Shown in pieces: positions 45,015-55,762 of a stretch of 64,000 nucleotides of DNA (position 1 is its first letter; every line of letters begins with the position of its first letter). The position numbers and the translations under genes were made by a program. Below the pieces are notes generated by a model. The model had not been told where the DNA came from. It ran no database searches and saw nothing but the letters and a program-made list of their open reading frames with translations. The DNA lies in the NCBI GenBank assembly GCA_950295325.1, contig OX485808.1, positions 6,450,501-6,514,500 on the forward strand, read 5' to 3'. The stretch comes from Polytrichum commune. Its lineage: Eukaryota; Streptophyta; Polytrichopsida; Polytrichales; Polytrichaceae.

Positions 45015-45640
45015 TGTTATGAACCCTTATACGGTTACTTTTGCTTTATTAGACACCTGTATTTGAGTGACATGTGGTTTGACGTGGCTCCAAGAAATAC
45101 CAAGAAAACATATGTTAAAAAAAAGATGGACTACGTGCTCATAAAATGTTAATCAACCCTAGATTTAATAATCAACATGATTGGGGGGAACCTATATCAC
45201 CATTCAACGAGCATGAGAATCTTCAATCTAATAAGATGGTTCATACGACTCTCTCTGAAAACAATGATAAAAGTCACTACAATCTCAATTCAATGGATTA
45301 ACGAACCATCTCGTACTACACTGATAATCCCAATCAGTCCGTGTTATTATTCGGAGTTACGTTGTGCAATAACATCTTACTCGAGAGTCCAATTTCTACT
45401 AACGAAAGTTCAATAAGTTGTTTGAACAATATTATAAAACATAAATGACTTTGCTTGATGAAAATATGATATTCTCATCAACTAGTTAGAGCGTTGTGTA
45501 ACTCCGAATAATAACACACACTACTAATTGGGATAAATGATTGTGCTAATTGTTTGTGTGTTTCCACATCCTAGGAGAAGTGGGCTATGTAGTCGAAGAA
45601 AGTAACCATTTAAGACCCATCTATCTGCCTTATGAGCTGA
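45015..45640 (+). repeat. dispersed repeat family B, copy 4, with a MITE inside
   Basis: Carries the same landmarks as 21,098-21,480 but is about 230 bp longer, because the TIR element at 45,325-45,535 interrupts it between 'tcgtactac' and 'catcctaggagaagtgggct'. Confidence 0.65.
45325..45535. mobile_element. MITE with 'taatcccaat' ends, copy 2
   Basis: Long terminal inverted repeats: left 'taatcccaatcagtccgtgt' then 'tattattcggagttac'; right 'gtaactccgaataataacac' then 'actactaattgggata'. They pair over about 45 bp with few mismatches. It interrupts a family-B repeat, so it is younger than that copy. Flanks are not decisive for a target duplication. Confidence 0.7.
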
Positions 45641-47120
45641 CGAAGTCCCTCCCTCTATTCTATCTCCCTCGAAGCAAGGCTTGGAACCACTACATACTTG
45701 AGCTAAGGAAAGCGAGGTACCAAAAGCATCATAGCTTGATCATCGGAATGGATTCTGGAACAACAACGACATCATCGTCATCAACATCAACCAGAAACAA
45801 TTGGGAAGGAAGAAGCCAGAAGGCATCATCTTCGTCATCTGTTTCCAAAGGTGAGAACAGAAAAGATAGAGTAGAGAAGACAGGGAAAGGAAGAGCAAAG
45901 AGGAATTGAGAGAGGGAGAGTGAGAGAGGGAGAGGGAGGGAGAGAGAGAGATTGGTTCTTCGATTGTTGTCAGGTATTCGCAACCCCTTCAACTTCTCGT
46001 GGGAGAATTCCTGGCCTTGCATTGTACACCTACTGACATGGCCAACTCCACTTACGAGAATGATTGCTGGCCGCAGGGTTGCGTGTGTGGACAGGTGAAG
46101 GAGTCGCGAGGTTTGGGGTTCTTGAAAACCGGGAGGGAAGGAGGGGCATGTTAGGATTAGTTCGGTAAATGGTAATGATGATTGCACAGAGTGGTGTGCG
46201 AGGAGGAGGAGTGTGGAGGAGTGTGGTCCACTTCGTTTCTATTTTTGTTGGGCGGGAGCTTTGGGGGTGAAGAGGGTTTTAATCCCCACCTTTTAGGGTT
46301 CTAGACGGGGTCTCCAATGTGGGGGGTTATGATGCATGTTTGAGGGTTTTGTGGTGGAGGAGTGTCAACATCTCTCTCTAAGACTCTTGGAGGAGCAATG
46401 TCATCACGAGCCTGGCGTGTTGGGGGGTCATCATCGAGAATGCTGGCAAATTGTAGCGGGCAAGAGGTGAATAAGTTGGGGATTGTCCTGGCTAATTACG
46501 CGCGAAGATTGGGAGACGTGGAAAAACCCGTGCGCAGCTTGTGAACGTGGACAGAGGGCAAGCAGAGGGAAGGGAGGAAGGAAGGAAGGAAGGAAGGAAG
46601 GAAGGATTGATTGATTGATTGATGTATTTATGTATGTATGCCTCATCATCAAAATTAAAGTTGAAGCTTTTCTTCTCTATAGGAGTCCTCTCCTTTGAGC
46701 TCAGGTAGGAAGTAAGAAGGACGATCCCTCCTAAGAGTCAACCAAATCCTAACAAGAAGAGGAAGAAGAAAAAGTGGCATTCATGTATATTCTCAACAAG
46801 GTGATTCTATGTGATTATGTGAGTGTATATGCTCCGTCGCCGGTGAACTTCTCCAGACTACTGGTGAGGCAAAGAAGGAAATTTTGAACTGGAACAAAAT
46901 TCCTCTTCTCAGGCGAGAGGGAGAAATGGTTGTGGTGGTATTTATACACGTGGGGAAGATTGAGTTACGATTATGACGATGATCACCAGCTTTGAAGAAC
47001 GAACGAGGAGTGTGTAGCTCCTTTTTTGGTGGTTGGTATTGAAAACTGGGTGGATTGGTTCATTCAGTTTTTTTCTTTTTTTTTGGGGGGGGGGGGATTG
47101 ATTGAGCAAGTGGAGCAATA
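45641..47120. promoter_or_regulatory. upstream region of the trihelix-NMNAT gene
   Basis: GA-rich tract at about 45,905-45,952 and GGAA/GATT microsatellites at 46,574-46,623. TATTTATA lies at 46,939-46,946 next to a G-box core, CACGTG, at 46,947-46,952, about 170 bp before the ATG. Read on the minus strand the first motif is TATAAATA, a perfect TATA box, so direction is ambiguous. Several open frames of 60-150 codons on both strands are low-complexity and not supported as genes. A poly-T/poly-G stretch precedes the ATG. Confidence 0.35.
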
Positions 47121-50100
47121 ATGGACCAGGGGGGTGCGACAACTCCCGCCGTTCTGCTGGATGGGGCTCAGTCAAGCTCGGCGGGTCTGGACCAACAGGA
47201 CGTGAACAATTACGGGGCCCAACCGTATGGGCGCGGCGACAACAATTTTGCCGCAGACCGGCAATCGCTGTATGCGAGCGCGGCAGGGTATGCAAACCAC
47301 GAGGGGTTTGTGAGAGAGTCGCAGGCATACCCTTCTTCGTTTGTGGAGAGGGGCGCATACGGCGGGCACGACAACCGGTACCCTCGAGAGGCTTCCGCGG
47401 TGACGAAGGATGGCGAGGTTCTGCAAAGGGAGGGCGGATTGTCGGAGTCCGACTCGAGCAGCAAGCGGCAGAAACGCGCAGATTGGTGGCAGGAGTCGCC
47501 AGGGGGCGAGCGGCCATCGGATGTGGCCAAGGAAACCGGGAACCCATCCACACAAATTGTGCCTCCTGTGGTATCAAGTTTCGGCAGCCAGGTGGTGCCA
47601 TACCGAGGGTTAGGGTTGGGGGTGCATTTGGAAGGGCAGGCGATGAGCATTGAGGATGGTGATGTTGGAGGTACCAGCGGCGGGGGAGGTGCAGGAATCG
47701 GAGAGGACGAAGAAGGATGTGGCGACGGGGATGGGAAAGAAAGGTTGGACAAAGAAGGCGTGGCGAGGAAGAAGCGAGCTGAGATGTGGCAGGATGGCGA
47801 AATGGATGCCCTTGTGCGGGCGTTCCGGGAGGTTCACATGAAGCTCACTGCGGCTGGGAAGAAAGGGAAGCAGGTGTTCAAGTCAGCCAATGATAAGTGG
47901 AAGGAAGTGCGGACTCTCCTCTTAGCCTCCGGAGTTGACAGACAGCCCAAGGAAATCGAACGCAAATGGTCCAACCTGTCCACGGCGTTCAAGCAGATTG
48001 CCGACTGGAACAAGAAAGTGGGGCGCCCAACATACTGGGATCTGGATGAGAGCTTGAAAAAGGAGAAGACCAAGGCGAAGGAACTCCCCGCCACATTTAG
48101 GGTGCAGCTTTTTGATGCCATGGCTGAGTTTATGGGCGATCGACAGAGCACACGAAGCCGGTCGCCGGCTCCTGTGCACTTGACAATCCCTGGCCTTCCT
48201 CGGCCACCTCCTCTTCCAGGTCTGGCTCTTCTTTATCCTGGTGTTACTTACAATGGTTACCTAATATCAGCGTTGGGCAAAGTCTGATGAAGACCGTGAA
48301 CTGGACTTCAACAATGTGTTTGTGGAAACTGCTGTGTGGCAGAGTTTGTGCACAATCAAGGCCATGTTTGGAACGTGTTGAGTAGGTCGATTGTTGAAAG
48401 AAGTTATGTTTTTTGATGGGTTTCCCATGTTGGAGATTATGTCTTTCAAGTGAGAGACCTGTTTGTTTGTCTTTACTGGTATTTGTTTACAATGTGTTGG
48501 GCAGAGTCTGATGAAGACCATTTGGGTGGACTTCAACAATGTGCTGTCTAATTGGTTCTGTGGGTACAGCTTGTACATATTAATGCATGGGTTGGTGCAC
48601 TGTTTTTGAAACAAATTGAGTGGGCTTGTTGAAAAAAATCCTGTTTCTTTGATGAGTTTCCTGTGTTGGGAGTTTTTATTTTTTTGAGCGAGATATCTGT
48701 TTTTCTGTCTTCACCCTTTCATCCTGTTCCTAAAGGTGGCGAGCTTGGATTTGCGGGTGATGCAGGAGTGGTCGATGTGCCATTGCCAATCGACAAGCTT
48801 GCATCCCATTCAAACCCCTTGGATGCTGGAAACCAGTATGCCCTCTTCATTTGCATCATCCTTTGTATTTGAATCATTTCACCTCATTGCTGAGCCATGT
48901 AGACATGTGCTCAAGCAGCTCTGTCACTTGTGATTAAGTGAAGAGGAAAGCTTGTCTACATTGATTCTGAGAGGAGTGAGTGAATTCTTCAAGCATGTAG
49001 AGCATGCTACTTTGTCACAGTTCGGATTGCCAAAGCCATCGCTGTTCAAGTAAATTATTATTTCAGATTCGTTTATGCAGTGTGTAAATTGAGTAGTGGG
49101 GCTTGATAGTGTGACACTGCAAACAGAGGGATGCAGTATGACTGAGTATGTATTTGTAGGAAGCGCATGCGAGTGGTGCTCGTGAGTCCCGGAAGCTTCA
49201 ATCCTCCAACATATATGCATCTTCGCATGTTTGGTGAGTCTACCTCCCACCCTGTCCTGGCCCTTCTGCCTCTTTCATCTATCCTCTTCTTTCGCATTAA
49301 TTTTATATTTAAACTGTCAATAAACAGATGAGACATAAGAGACCTGAAATGAGTATAGTTGTCTATCCTGATGAAGTTTGAATGGAATCTGCCTCTGCAG
49401 AACTGGCAAAAGATGCACTTACCATAGAGGGATATGATGTGTTGGGAGCCTACATGTCTCCCGTCAGTGATCATTACAGTAAAAAGGTGCCTTTCTTCTC
49501 TTTGTCACAAAACCATGCATCTGATTTATATGCAGATTATTTGTTAGATTAGTCTTTCAAAGTAGATTTGGAAGCATTGCATTTCAAATTGTTTGAATTA
49601 CATATCAATTTCTTATGGAGTTTCTGAGTCAAAGTTCTCCATGCTCTATTGTGATCTTACAGGGTCACCTGTTTGTGCCTCCTATCTTGGTCATGCCCCA
49701 CCTTTTGCATGTCTAAGACCTCATGATTGTGAGGATGTGGGACCACAAAGTGACATGCCACACTTTGCTTATAGTGCCCAAAAATAGTTTATCAAAGTAT
49801 AAAATTTTCAAATTCATGGGCCCTATCTATGTTAGAGCCTTCACTCACTTGTTTATGTCATTGTATGCTACACTGTGGAGTTGTCATGTGTGCACATAGG
49901 TCATGCTATCCCTCCATTTGGTTTTTATTTATTTTTGAACTTTGGAACATATCCTTTGTGTCCACTATACTTTTAATGTTAGGTATTCACAATAGGTCAC
50001 AAACCAGATAGGTGCACTTACCTTACTGGTTGGTTTTCATCTAGCTGTGCTGAGGGTCATCTAAATGCATAGTGTATGATGTCTGCTGCTTTGAAGTTGC

Positions 50101-53100
50101 ACCATGGTTCTGATGTGTACCCATGTGTATATCGCCAAGGGTCTTGCTCCCGCAGAACACCGGATCAGGATGTGCCAGTTGGCAGTTGTGGATTCGCCAT
50201 TTGTGATGGTGGACACCTGGGAGGTGAGGCTTGTGCCATTTTTGTATTAAGTGATTGGTCTGCCCTGTGTGTTTGTTGTTCTGCTGTTGAAAAAGGCTAA
50301 CTCAAGTGTTGGGTGGGTATGGTTCATGTAGGCTAAGCAGACCACGTACCAGAGGACTCACACTGTATTGAGTCGAATTGAAATGGCAGTTAATAATCAT
50401 TGTTTTGCAGCTGAGGGTGAGTGGTTCAGTGATTATTGTTTAATATCCTACACATGTGTACATAATGCAGATAATGAAAATCCTGTTATGTGTGTCATTT
50501 TTATCTTAGTTTTCACAACAATGTACTTTAGGTGCTGGCTGAGTGACCTCTAGTGTATTCTCTTGGTCAGGCCTGGATAGTCTACAGTGTTGATTTTTTT
50601 GGCTATATTCACCATGCGAAGGGTGAAAAGACCCAAAGGTGCCAAAAGCTATTAGGGCCAAGTTCCATGTGCCGGTCCCGGTCCGTTTTTTTCAAAATAA
50701 ATGGGTGGGCCAGTCATGTGCCCATCCTTCTCACCCAAGGACCGGTACCCCCCATGGATGGGTGTCCCACATTTTGTGTTGTGCAAGAACGGGTGCCAAA
50801 GGACCGGCGGTCCTAACGGTAACATGAAGGACATGTGCCGGTTAGAAAGCTCCGGTGACCGGATCGGCCGGTCACCTAGGGTACACCCTTGGATACTAAA
50901 GGCCACTTTGTTCTTCTAATCCCTTCTTTTGAGGAGTACTCCTAGGGAACCGTGTATTTTATGATGTTTTTAGAATCTAGATGACCTTCATTGCCGGTGA
51001 CCTTCATAAAGTGTCATGTCTTATCACTCACCAAATTTAGTTAGAAAGTAGGAAATCGGAAAAAACCGGCACCCCACATAGAAGTACCCCTCCATAAAAT
51101 GGGTGACATCACCCATTTTTTGGATGATGTCACCCGTTTCTCACCCATTTAAAAAACGGACTGGGACCGGCACATGGAACTTGGCCCTTAGAACCTGAAT
51201 TGAGAAGCCTGTAGAGCTGGCACTGAAGTTCAGGGACTTGTCTGGCTGGAAGCAATGGATTTTTTTTGTAACTATCTGGGTAGTAGATGTTTGAGCAAGC
51301 ACATGATTACATGTTCTTTGTAGTGAGACATGTCTGCAATTGGGCCAATTTGATGCTGAATGTCTGAAAGCTCTTCTGGAAGTTTTGCCATGTTGATTTT
51401 TGTAAGTTCTTCCTGTGCAGAGAAAGTAAGAGTAATGATGATCTGTGGAGTTGACCTGCTCGGGACAATGACAACTCCAGGAGTTTGGGTACCTGAGCAG
51501 GTTGGTAGCTCTCGATTTAGTGAGAACTCACTTGACAAACTATGCATTCTGATTTTCACCACAATTTCACACAGGCCAAAACATAATTTCTCTTGCACTT
51601 GCACAAACTGTCATGTGGTTACCTTTGAATGTTCTGTTGGTTTTTCCTGCAGTGATATGGATGCTCTGTCTTCTTATGTTCATTTTGATGTGCTATTGTG
51701 TCATCTTTGGAATTTCGCAATGGTAAGCTTGTGAAATACTTAACTTGAAGATATGGGTCTCTTGAACGCATATGTTCCTACTTTTGTGTGCAAGTTGCTT
51801 AACTTGCACACAAAGTCACTTCATTGCATAGCTATGTGAATTAAAATGTGAGGAGTCATGTTCTTGCATTGCAGGTGCGAGCATTACTGCAAGAGTTTGG
51901 CGTGGTTTGCATCAACCGAGATGGCATAGATGCACGACGCCTTCTGTTTGAACATGACATTCTGTACGATAACCGAGTAAGTCTGATATTATTTTTTTTC
52001 TCACCATGATTTGAGTATTTTCCCTTTTGAATCTCATAGGATTAATTAGAGTTTGTGTACACAGTGATACTTTGAACAGATCAATGGACATAGTTTTGTA
52101 AGCATGGCCACAGAACCCAGTGCTCTGTTTTTGTAATGATTTAGCATCATAGTTATTGTGGGTTTACTAAGTATAGCAGTTGTTGGGTAGTCCTTGTACA
52201 GCTAGGGGTTGAATTTTGACGATTGAATCTTTTGAATTTCGCAGAGACAAATTTTGGTGGTGGATGACATCTCTCTTGCAAATGACATGAGTTCTACAAA
52301 AATCAGGTATGCCCTCCCCTTCTTGTTGTTAACATTTGTGATAGGTCATATAGGTCTTATGCACATGTGAGGATTGCAGTTGGATAGGTTACTCTGATCA
52401 GGGGTGAAGGCTTTCTGGCATCCATCTCTATTATTGATGTGGCTTTTTCATGTTCGATTTTCAATGTAAGTTACTGATTCCTAAGTTTCATATATTTGGA
52501 AGTATGCTCTGTGTTTTATAGGATTCCTTAATCTGTAGACCATCCGCAGATAATAAAGGTTAGTTTCCATGTAGGCTGCTTGCCCAACATGGAAACTAAC
52601 CCCAAGTCTGGCACAATCGTGCTGAACAATCAATTATTTGGCAAAAGTAGGGTTGATATTTTTTCTTGATACTATTTATCTTAAATTTGTTATGCATTTT
52701 GAATCTATTGAATATGCATGTGAGTATTTGCACAAATATTAAGTTGTAAGATATGGAAGTAAACCCCTTTTCATATACAAGCACAAACAACTTTGAATGG
52801 GTTGGTGTCTACAATGCATGTGGGATATGTAAACTTGAGATGAGGCCCTGAGAGTCCACTTGTTTGTAATTGTGCATAAGGTAAGCTGGTCTTAAACAAA
52901 TGCTTTAGCTCTGTGCCTACTTCTTGTAGTATATGAATCACGGAATTAGTGCAAGATGATTCGCAAATATAAAGTGTGCTCGTAGCCATTTTCCTCATTA
53001 TTTTTGGAGCTCATATAAATAAATTATTCATAGTCAAAGTGAAGATCATCTTTTCTAATTAAATGGTCATAAGATATTTTTAAGGCGTTGAGCCTTCTAT

Positions 53101-55762
53101 GAGCCTTTATGAGCATGCCCTTACTCATGGTTCCAAAAGAGCATTTTGGACCATGATGCACTCAATGGAGCTTGACCTTAGGCCCACTTACCTTAAGTCA
53201 TGAACAACTACTTCAAACCTCAAAATCCTTTTTGGAGGCGAAATTTTCCCTGATATTTTAGTTTTTCTCCACTGAACACAACTTCAAGATAGTCTTTCTT
53301 TGACAATCAACTCTTGAATGCCCAAGAGGCCAATTTTGGGCTTTTTTCATATGTAATTTGTAGGGTTTTCCTACATAATTATTTTTTGCCAAGTCCTTGA
53401 TCTGTGACCCCTATTCATATTATCTGATTCATTTCCAAGAATGAATGGATTCGTTGAAATGATCGGTCTTGTCAAAATATTCATTGTTTAAATTCACATA
53501 TCAACCATTAATAAATCTATGAGATTTTGTCCAATCACCACATTATCAATTTAGAAAGTGTGTCAAATGATCATCTTTCATTTTTTGGCTTGAAAAATTA
53601 TAAATATAGGTTGGTATGGCCATCCGAAATCAGAAAAAGTTAAAATCATCTGGGGCGGCCACTTTTTTTTAAGACCTACTTCCAAAGTGTGGTAAAATCT
53701 GATATATTTGTCAAATATTTGGTTTCATTTGAAGTTTTCACAATGATATGCAAAGTAATTTCCTCAAAAATGTTTAAAGAACAAATTTAAAGTCACGTTC
53801 TAGTAGTGCCAAAATTTTGTGATCCTTGAAGAATTAAGCTCCAAAAATTTGTTGCTTTGGTCTTTCTACACCTCTTTAAAAAACTCGCTGAAAATTTATT
53901 CATATCTCTTGCTTGAAGACTTGAAGTGACAAGAAGCTTTTTGATATTGGCATATTGGATGGTTTCCTAGCTTATTTTAGTTGGGCATAATGCAAAATAA
54001 GTTCACATTCTATGTGCTCTGAAGCACCAAAAATCTCATAGAATTTACACAAGATAAATGGTGACTTGAATTTTGAGCATAGAGTGCGTGAGAATACAAA
54101 TGTAGCATAAACTGATAGGTGCGACTGGTCTCTTGGCGCCACCCTCGTTGTGCATCTCCCGTGTAGCTAAGACTTCAATCACCTGAAATCCGCCCAAATC
54201 AACTACGGATAATAACTCAATATATGACAGTAAAGATTTCTTTTTCTGCTGTGTACTTTCTTAGTAGCCTTTCATAGGCTAGTCTTTTAATCATTTTGTG
54301 GTGGCTCCTCCCACTTGACTTGCCACCCTTTTACACTTGGGGTCAGTCACTCTCCTTTCCTTTGTTTCTATACTGGAGTTCAAAAGCTTGGACTTCACTG
54401 AGAGTATATTAGAATGAGTGATGGACTCAAATTGACACTAAAAATAGGATATCAGAATGTGAAAATAAGTAGAATAATGAAAACATTTTCAACTAAATTT
54501 TTTGTTTGATTTGTGATGCACACATGCATTAAGTAGGCACCATTTGAATTTTATGGACTTCTGCACCTGAATCTAGTGACATGGTCAGTACATTGTTTAT
54601 GTGTTTGAACTGTTTCATGCTCAAAACAAAATCAACACTGACTTATATCTGTGAGTCGATAGAGATATACTTCAACTCAATGGGGTTATTCATTGGGAGT
54701 TGGTCCCTTATGATTTCCCATTGGTTGTTTAGCATACATTATCAAAAATGATTGTAAAAGTTTTTCTATCCATGCTCGGAGGTAGTGTTTGAATTTGCAA
54801 GTCAAACTCAAATTAGTATCTCTTTGGCATGTTAAAATGAGTTTGACCCTCAATGAGCCGAAATAGAATGTTTTTTGTTCAGACCTCCACACTACCTGCA
54901 AGCATGCACCAAATACTTACCAATCATGGAAGGTGCTGTATGCAAAACAACCAACCCCTGACCAAAAGTTATGTTGAGTTAGAGGATAACTCTATCGCCT
55001 TCCAAGTTCCCCATAAATTTCATGTTAACCCATATGTTCTGGGGATGAGTTTAAGATGAGCTTGGACTAATAGGTCAAATTTTTCTCAACATTCTATCCT
55101 ACAACTAATTACAAACAAATATATAGACAGTATTATAAACAGTGATGATTTCACCATTTTTGGGCATTTCTGAAAGATAAACATAGTGAGATTTGCCAAA
55201 CTATGCCTCAAACTTAGAAAACAAATTGGCATTTATTTTCTGGAAAGGTGTTAGCTGAACCAGTTATCTGCCTATCTGACGGTATATAGGAGACTTTCCA
55301 ATAATCTCACAATACTCCCTAGCAGGTTTAATTATTCAAGCAATTTGCATATTGTTCTGTGAAATGGAGCGAAAGGAAAATACCATGTATTGTTTGTACA
55401 GGGGTGAAATTGTGCAGTTTTTATTTTTATTTTTATCATCATATAGTGTAGTGTTTTTTGAGCTTAACAATGTCATCTGTAGTTTGTTTTTAGGGTTTGA
55501 TCAATTTGCGAGGTGTAATAGATATAGAGCATACATGTTTAGCTTCACTTTTCAAATCTAATGAGCTTCTAGACTTTCTTGGACAGTTGACCAAAGAGAA
55601 AGAAATGAATAATTTTTTTATCGGGCAATTTCTTTTTGCAGACGAAATTTGTCGAGGGGGCTATCTGTCAAGTACCTGACTCCCGATTCGGTGATTAACC
55701 ACATCAAGATGCATCAATTATACACGAACGCCACCCCCCTTCAACAACATCCCCAATCATGA
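47121..55762 (+). CDS. trihelix DNA-binding domain fused to NMN adenylyltransferase (10 exons)
   Basis: Exons are 47,121-48,219, 48,736-48,835, 49,160-49,233, 49,401-49,486, 50,140-50,223, 50,332-50,416, 51,421-51,500, 51,875-51,976, 52,245-52,306 and 55,642-55,762. They sum to 1,893 nt with every GT-AG phase consistent, giving 630 residues. Residues 1-366 hold a Gly/Ser/Asp-rich leader and a trihelix (Myb/SANT-like) domain at about 218-345, with its three tryptophans at 223, 260 and 283. Residues about 379-630 are a complete plant-type NMNAT: VDVPLPIDKL, GSFNPPTYMHLRMF (GxFxPxxxxH nucleotidyl-transfer motif, about 411-424), YMSPVSDHY, PGVWVPEQ and SSTKIRR (ATP-binding SxTxxR-type motif). NMNAT joins NMN or NaMN to ATP to form NAD or NaAD. 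There is no in-frame ATG between the exon-2 acceptor and the conserved NMNAT start, which supports the fusion. Without splicing at 48,219 the first exon reads to a stop at 48,287, giving a 388-residue trihelix protein. Separate genes with an unseen NMNAT first exon remain possible. Confidence 0.75.
48250..48715. repeat. two tandem copies (224-bp period) filling the trihelix-NMNAT linking intron
   Basis: 'ttgggcaRagtctgatgaag' begins at 48,273 and again at 48,497, followed in both by 'ggacttcaacaatgtg', then 'gatgRgtttccYRtgttgg'. The intron is 48,220-48,735, so nearly all of it is the duplication. The stop codon of the unspliced reading (48,285-48,287) lies in copy 1. Confidence 0.85.
50655..51187. 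mobile_element. Tourist/PIF-Harbinger-like MITE, 533 bp (TSD TTA)
   Basis: Terminal inverted repeats of about 37 bp. The left starts 'gggccaagttccatgtgccg' and the right ends 'ggcacatggaacttggccc'. Both are flanked by TTA (50,652-50,654 and 51,188-51,190). The interior holds further G/C-rich inverted segments and 'catcacccatttttt'. It lies in the intron between NMNAT exons 6 and 7 of the fusion model. No transposase. Confidence 0.9.
52307..55641 (+). other. 3.3-kb last intron of the trihelix-NMNAT gene
   Basis: Long AT-rich intron between the exon ending in SSTKI-R and the last exon (RNLSRGLSVKYLTPDSV). It contains the short hairpin element at 52,558-52,603. Otherwise I see no gene, only short open frames without domains. 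Confidence 0.6.
52558..52603. mobile_element. 46-bp hairpin remnant of the 120-bp Tourist-like family
   Basis: 'ggttagtttccatgtaggc' followed closely by 'catggaaactaacccc', its reverse complement. The outer sequence equals the end of the element at 56,721-56,840, so this looks like an internally deleted copy. Confidence 0.55.

Follow-up and report, generated by a model that had tools for sequence, protein, structure and literature searches.

NadR of enteric bacteria unites a DNA-binding regulator and an NMN adenylyltransferase (NMNAT) in one protein, and binding of NAD to Salmonella NadR leads to DNA binding and to repression of NAD genes (PMC8027369). Human NMNAT1 is a nuclear enzyme that SIRT1 recruits to target promoters and that PARP1 binds (PMC9194868). 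Within the green lineage, the Chlamydomonas NMNAT (NIC1) was predicted to contain 234 amino acids, and RT-PCR showed 524 (PMC2936527), a case indicating that gene models of NMNAT can be wrong.

Here we describe a locus of Polytrichum commune whose sequence is best modelled as one spliced gene encoding a trihelix DNA-binding domain followed by an NMNAT. It lies in a window (the whole stretch of DNA that was analysed, 64,000 nt of contig OX485808.1, to which all positions refer) of a genome that was searched over 408 Mb in 64 contigs. As in the plant NMNAT of PDB entry 9rpk, the whole enzyme part is alignable and both nucleotidyl-transferase motifs are present; unlike 9rpk, the locus has Val379 in place of Met, with 378 in-frame residues, including the trihelix domain, ahead of it. 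Entry 9rpk is named nicotinamide/nicotinic acid mononucleotide adenylyltransferase; we take it to be the Arabidopsis enzyme. The N-terminal part resembles the trihelix (GT factor) family, for example GT-1 (PDB 2jmw and 2ebi), in carrying a PF13837 domain over the cutoff, and departs from that family in that, in the spliced model, the exon ends without a stop and an enzyme follows in frame.

The predicted protein is like NadR in combining a DNA-binding region and an NMN adenylyltransferase, and unlike it in the parts used: a trihelix stands here where NadR has a helix-turn-helix, and NadR also has a nicotinamide-ribonucleoside kinase. NadR-type helix-turn-helix and nicotinamide-ribonucleoside kinase domains were not found in the predicted product, in which PF13837 and PF01467 were the only domains detected at E<=0.1. 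Human NMNAT1 is recruited by partner proteins, whereas the predicted fusion would bring its own DNA-binding domain. NIC1 is likewise a green-lineage NMNAT much above the usual size, but its extra sequence is rich in Gly, Pro and Gln, and the accessible text of that paper mentions no DNA-binding domain. A literature search with poor coverage of subscription papers found no work in which trihelix occurs together with NMNAT, abbreviated or in full; searches for a trihelix fusion gene in bryophytes and for nuclear localization of the Arabidopsis NMNAT in pollen also found none, and the papers listed for NMNAT and moss did not, judging by titles and opening lines of abstracts, deal with plants.

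Results

A continuous frame across ten exons

Rebuilding the splice boundaries of positions 47121-55762 on the plus strand gave ten exons and nine introns, all GT-AG, which join into a continuous frame of 1893 nt without internal stop. Its translation is a predicted product of 630 amino acids and 69.2 kDa. Exon 1 (47121-48219) opens with an ATG at 47121, downstream of an in-frame stop at 47103, and contains 366 whole codons plus one base; it encodes N-terminal basic stretches, the trihelix domain (residues 222-304) and a Pro-rich tail. After an intron of 516 nt (48220-48735), exon 2 (48736-48835) encodes the linker GGELGFAGDAGV, of which the first G is split across the junction, and then VDVPLPIDKL, the conserved N-terminus of NMNAT. 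Exon 3 (49160-49233) contains Met403 and the nucleotidyl-transferase signature GSFNPPTYMH (residue 411). In the spliced model, the NMNAT continues through exons 4 (49401-49486), 5 (50140-50223), 6 (50332-50416), 7 (51421-51500) and 8 (51875-51976) to exon 9 (52245-52306), which carries the SSTKIR motif (residues 586-591) and whose final codon extends into exon 10 (55642-55762); exon 10 encodes the NMNAT C-terminus and the stop TGA.

The preliminary description of this DNA had placed the first donor at 48219/48220 (CCAG/GTCTGG) and its acceptor at 48735/48736 (CCTAAAG/GTGG), with an exon total divisible by three and an end at the natural NMNAT stop; all of this was recovered, the frame closing at the TGA of 55760-55762 and the alignment with 9rpk reaching 8 residues before the end. 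A second in-frame acceptor at 48766 would start exon 2 there and give a product of 620 residues; the presence of ten residues of the linker thus depends on which acceptor is used. Intron 6 holds a 535-bp element (50654-51188) with 38-nt inverted repeats at its ends that are 97% complementary, and this element looks like a non-autonomous, MITE-like DNA transposon.

The first exon encodes a trihelix-type domain

The Pfam profile Myb_DNA-bind_4 (PF13837) matches residues 222-304 with 38.6 bits (cutoff 27, E 1.5e-9), which bears out the earlier assignment of a trihelix domain to exon 1. Direct sequence comparison with PDB gave a weak match to GT-1 (E 0.074), and no NCBIfam match was found for exon 1 at E<=0.01. 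The open reading frame of exon 1 is the longest closed ATG frame among those listed in the window. A chance open frame was ruled out: among 500 sequences generated by an order-2 Markov model with the composition of exon 1, none reached 366 codons, and the longest frame had 355. The exon also encodes KRQKR at residue 115 and ARKKR at residue 215, which we take to be nuclear-localisation-like stretches.

Searching the genome with exon 1 gave at least 49 matches at E<=0.001, of which one is the locus itself and at least 48 lie elsewhere; the best-scoring other trihelix match among those listed is 32% identical to exon 1. Local alignment of the domain gave matches to L002, L003, L004, L007 and L008 at 25-31% identity, L005 and L006 having been removed by a motif filter and the matching L001, L012 and L015 being this locus. 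Together, these sequence comparisons support a genuine trihelix-type domain that would be without close paralogue in the genome. Among viral contigs, 15 pattern matches to a trihelix domain were obtained and none was confirmed as a relative.

Two of the trihelix-like copies, L003 and L004, lie on two contigs and are by eye nearly identical where both are readable, one of them with a stop within the matched region; L007 aligns to the same query segment. The L003/L004 group may represent a family that has multiplied recently or is carried by a mobile element.

The enzyme part is complete and was detected at one locus

The C-terminal part of the product is matched by CTP_transf_like (PF01467) at residues 410-592 (60.8 bits against a cutoff of 21, E 2e-16) and passes the NMNAT equivalog TIGR00482 of NCBIfam (147.3 bits against a cutoff of 112.45), nine other NCBIfam rows remaining under their cutoffs. 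Residues 379-622 align with 9rpk at E 1.6e-78, with 126 of 238 positions identical, from VDVPLP to 8 residues before the C-terminus. Both GSFNPPTYMH at residue 411 and SSTKIR at residue 586 are kept, in agreement with GxFxPxxxxH and SSTxxR, presumably the signature motifs of NMNAT. Since the domain is complete and keeps these two motifs, NMNAT catalysis is likely, judging from sequence.

The matching part of 9rpk begins MDVPLP, and here Val379 occupies the position of the Met. The in-frame VDVPLPIDKL had been called a conserved plant NMNAT N-terminus, and its alignment to 9rpk agrees. Moreover, the first ATG in this frame after the in-frame stop at 48630 is that of Met403 in exon 3, so the earlier observation that no in-frame ATG precedes the NMNAT start holds. 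With 9rpk and other plant sequences as the only references, we infer that the start Met was ancestral and was replaced by Val.

When the NMNAT sequence of the locus was searched against the genome, all nine matches fell at this locus. As a sensitivity control, the 53%-identical 9rpk sequence was used as query, and its five matches at E<=1 all fell here too; thus an equally diverged NMNAT split over short exons is still detectable, while a copy more diverged than the 9rpk query could escape. Neither search found another copy of NMNAT, and no retrocopy from which the splicing could be read was found either. A search with the PF01467 profile gave three hits at other loci, and this one was not among them; it is uninformative on copy number because the domain is split over short exons and the locus itself was missed. 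These three hits were rejected as NMNAT copies and assigned to two other enzymes: two, about 0.8 kb apart on one contig, are by their motifs presumably pieces of an ethanolamine-phosphate cytidylyltransferase-like gene, and the third, which is fused to CoaE, we take from its motifs to be a pantetheine-phosphate adenylyltransferase-like domain.

On L019 (151-2214, minus strand), a 687-aa open frame joins CTP_transf_like to dephospho-CoA kinase CoaE and has an additional C-terminal part, HD-like by eye, without Pfam match. In Arabidopsis, the pantetheine-phosphate adenylyltransferase and CoaE steps are encoded by separate genes.

The predicted junction between the two parts

Splice sites were scored with general plant matrices, not trained on this genome. 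The donor at 48219 scores 3.15 bits, which is fifth among the nine donors of the gene (range 0.63-5.94; those at 52306, 51500, 50223 and 50416 score higher) and within the top 1.9% of the 3582 GT sites of the window. No other phase-1 donor between 47900 and 48730 scores above zero. Its C at +3 and its G at +6 are unusual for a donor and count against it. The acceptor at 48736 scores 1.71, sixth of nine, and the in-frame alternative at 48766 (GATGCAG/GAG) is higher, at 2.63. The former ends in AAG and not in CAG or TAG, as does the lower-scoring acceptor of exon 5 at 50140 (-2.14). Agreement of phase at the junction alone has a chance of one in three.

Composition gives a further measure of where coding sequence ends. 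Within 47700-48700, the best change point lies at 48211, with a wide 2-unit support interval (48083-48231); relative to it, donor 48219 is 0.42 log units lower and the stop of the unspliced reading (48286) is 5.49 lower. The GC content of third codon positions falls already in 48111-48200. The end of coding-like composition is thus best placed near donor 48219, not at the read-through stop.

The gap itself resembles an intron. Its T and A contents (38.4% and 21.5%) fall inside the limits set by the eight remaining introns (T 30.5-39.8%, A 16.7-29.8%). Of 209 overlapping windows of 516 nt taken outside the gene, none equalled its excess of T over A on this strand, and 3 did so when either strand was counted. 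None of the poly(A)-like and TATA-like strings that were searched occurs in its 516 nt, which is weak evidence, and the absence of TATA-like strings says little because the region upstream of exon 1 is also without them. The DNA of the gap matches only its own locus in the genome. Intron 1 contains an imperfect tandem duplication with a spacing of about 225 nt.

Discussion

The preliminary description had proposed a trihelix-NMNAT fusion gene. We consider a spliced fusion, with one gene and one mRNA, to be the best model of the sequence, with a probability of about 0.7. A single gene is simplest because one NMNAT locus was detected, the start Met is replaced, the donor is in phase and the gap is intron-like. 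The proposal therefore stands as the simplest model, while the use of the junction and the translation across it are what we infer from it.

Two neighbouring genes would be the more conventional arrangement, given that plants usually have NMNAT as a stand-alone protein. The trihelix protein would then end at the stop of 48285-48287 (388 aa), a promoter in the gap would drive the NMNAT, exon 2 would be 5' UTR, and translation would start at Met403 (228 aa). The trihelix frame indeed continues just 22 residues past exon 1 before its stop, Met403 lies just ahead of the first core strand, the remainder keeps both nucleotidyl-transferase motifs, and the matching part of 9rpk has a Met of its own in MDVPLP. 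However, this arrangement would leave a conserved, in-frame VDVPLPIDKL untranslated and would have to fit terminator, promoter and leader into 448 nt in which the searched poly(A)-like and TATA-like strings are absent; composition, moreover, puts the coding end near the donor, 5.07 log units better than at the stop. We regard it as unlikely. Somewhat less likely still is a pair of genes in which the NMNAT has its own unrecognised first coding exon, in the gap or upstream of the trihelix exon. Enumeration from ATGs in 45500-47120 and 48220-48700 gave as best candidates one in the gap (48416-48449, 1.69 bits) and one upstream (45748-45850, 4.59 bits), both of which open with an ATG and reach acceptor 48736 in phase. 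At 34 nt, the candidate in the gap is very short, and its donor is weaker than 48219. The donor of the upstream candidate scores above 48219, which counts against the fusion, but its use means skipping the 1099-nt trihelix exon, and it lies within a longer open frame of 112 codons ending in a stop (45571-45909, plus strand), for which no Pfam match over cutoff was found. This frame is possibly the last exon of another plus-strand gene; if so, a spacing of about 1.2 kb between genes on one strand occurs in this region, and the closeness of trihelix and NMNAT is by itself weak evidence.

The missing start codon would also be accounted for by a non-AUG start at the GTG of 48768 (Val378, two codons before DVPLP), whose context GCAGGAGTGGTC is favourable by the usual rule (purine at -3, G at +4) and which would allow DVPLPIDKL to be translated without an upstream exon. 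GUG starts are rare among plant nuclear genes, and the trihelix exon with its in-phase donor would become a coincidence, which makes this explanation improbable. Close same-strand genes are prone to read-through splicing, and the fusion mRNA could in principle be a minor conjoined transcript beside separate main products; as this leaves the missing NMNAT start codon unexplained, we give it very little credence.

If the fusion is real, it most likely arose from two same-strand genes, one for a trihelix protein and, downstream of it, one for NMNAT. The two would have become joined once a donor near the trihelix coding end was spliced to an acceptor shortly ahead of the NMNAT start; the former initiator Met, then dispensable, would have become Val, and the rest of the N-terminus would have stayed conserved. 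The resulting protein of 630 or 620 residues would consist of an N-terminal trihelix region, a short linker and the only detected NMN/NaMN adenylyltransferase of the genome. Most likely it would enter the nucleus and produce NAD or NaAD in that compartment, part of the pool being held on DNA by the trihelix domain. Retention of intron 1 would yield a trihelix-only protein (388 aa, 42.0 kDa), and translation beginning internally at Met403 would yield the core of the NMNAT (228 aa, 25.9 kDa); shorter products of this kind are to be expected because a single gene must supply NAD elsewhere in the cell too.

The pairing of the two domains, together with the basic stretches, makes nuclear or chromatin-local NAD production plausible. 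By analogy with human NMNAT1, which acts via its partners, the fusion could supply chromatin enzymes with NAD, or it could sense NAD, as bacterial NadR does; delivery would require fewer assumptions than sensing. NadR would here be a precedent in design rather than a demonstrated relative by descent. In the most far-reaching version, the sole NMNAT of the lineage would be a DNA-binding protein that makes NAD on chromatin, perhaps with its DNA binding controlled by occupancy with NMN, ATP or NAD, and would be an independent eukaryotic counterpart of NadR; we hold this as a doubtful conjecture.

The NMNAT step is common to the known routes to NAD, and here it was detected at one locus only. If the sole NMNAT product carries a DNA-binding domain, this would permit a direct test of chromatin NAD delivery or of a transcription-factor readout in a system without redundant isoforms. 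The locus would also, if the model is true, be a clear example of a gene fusion followed by loss of a start codon.
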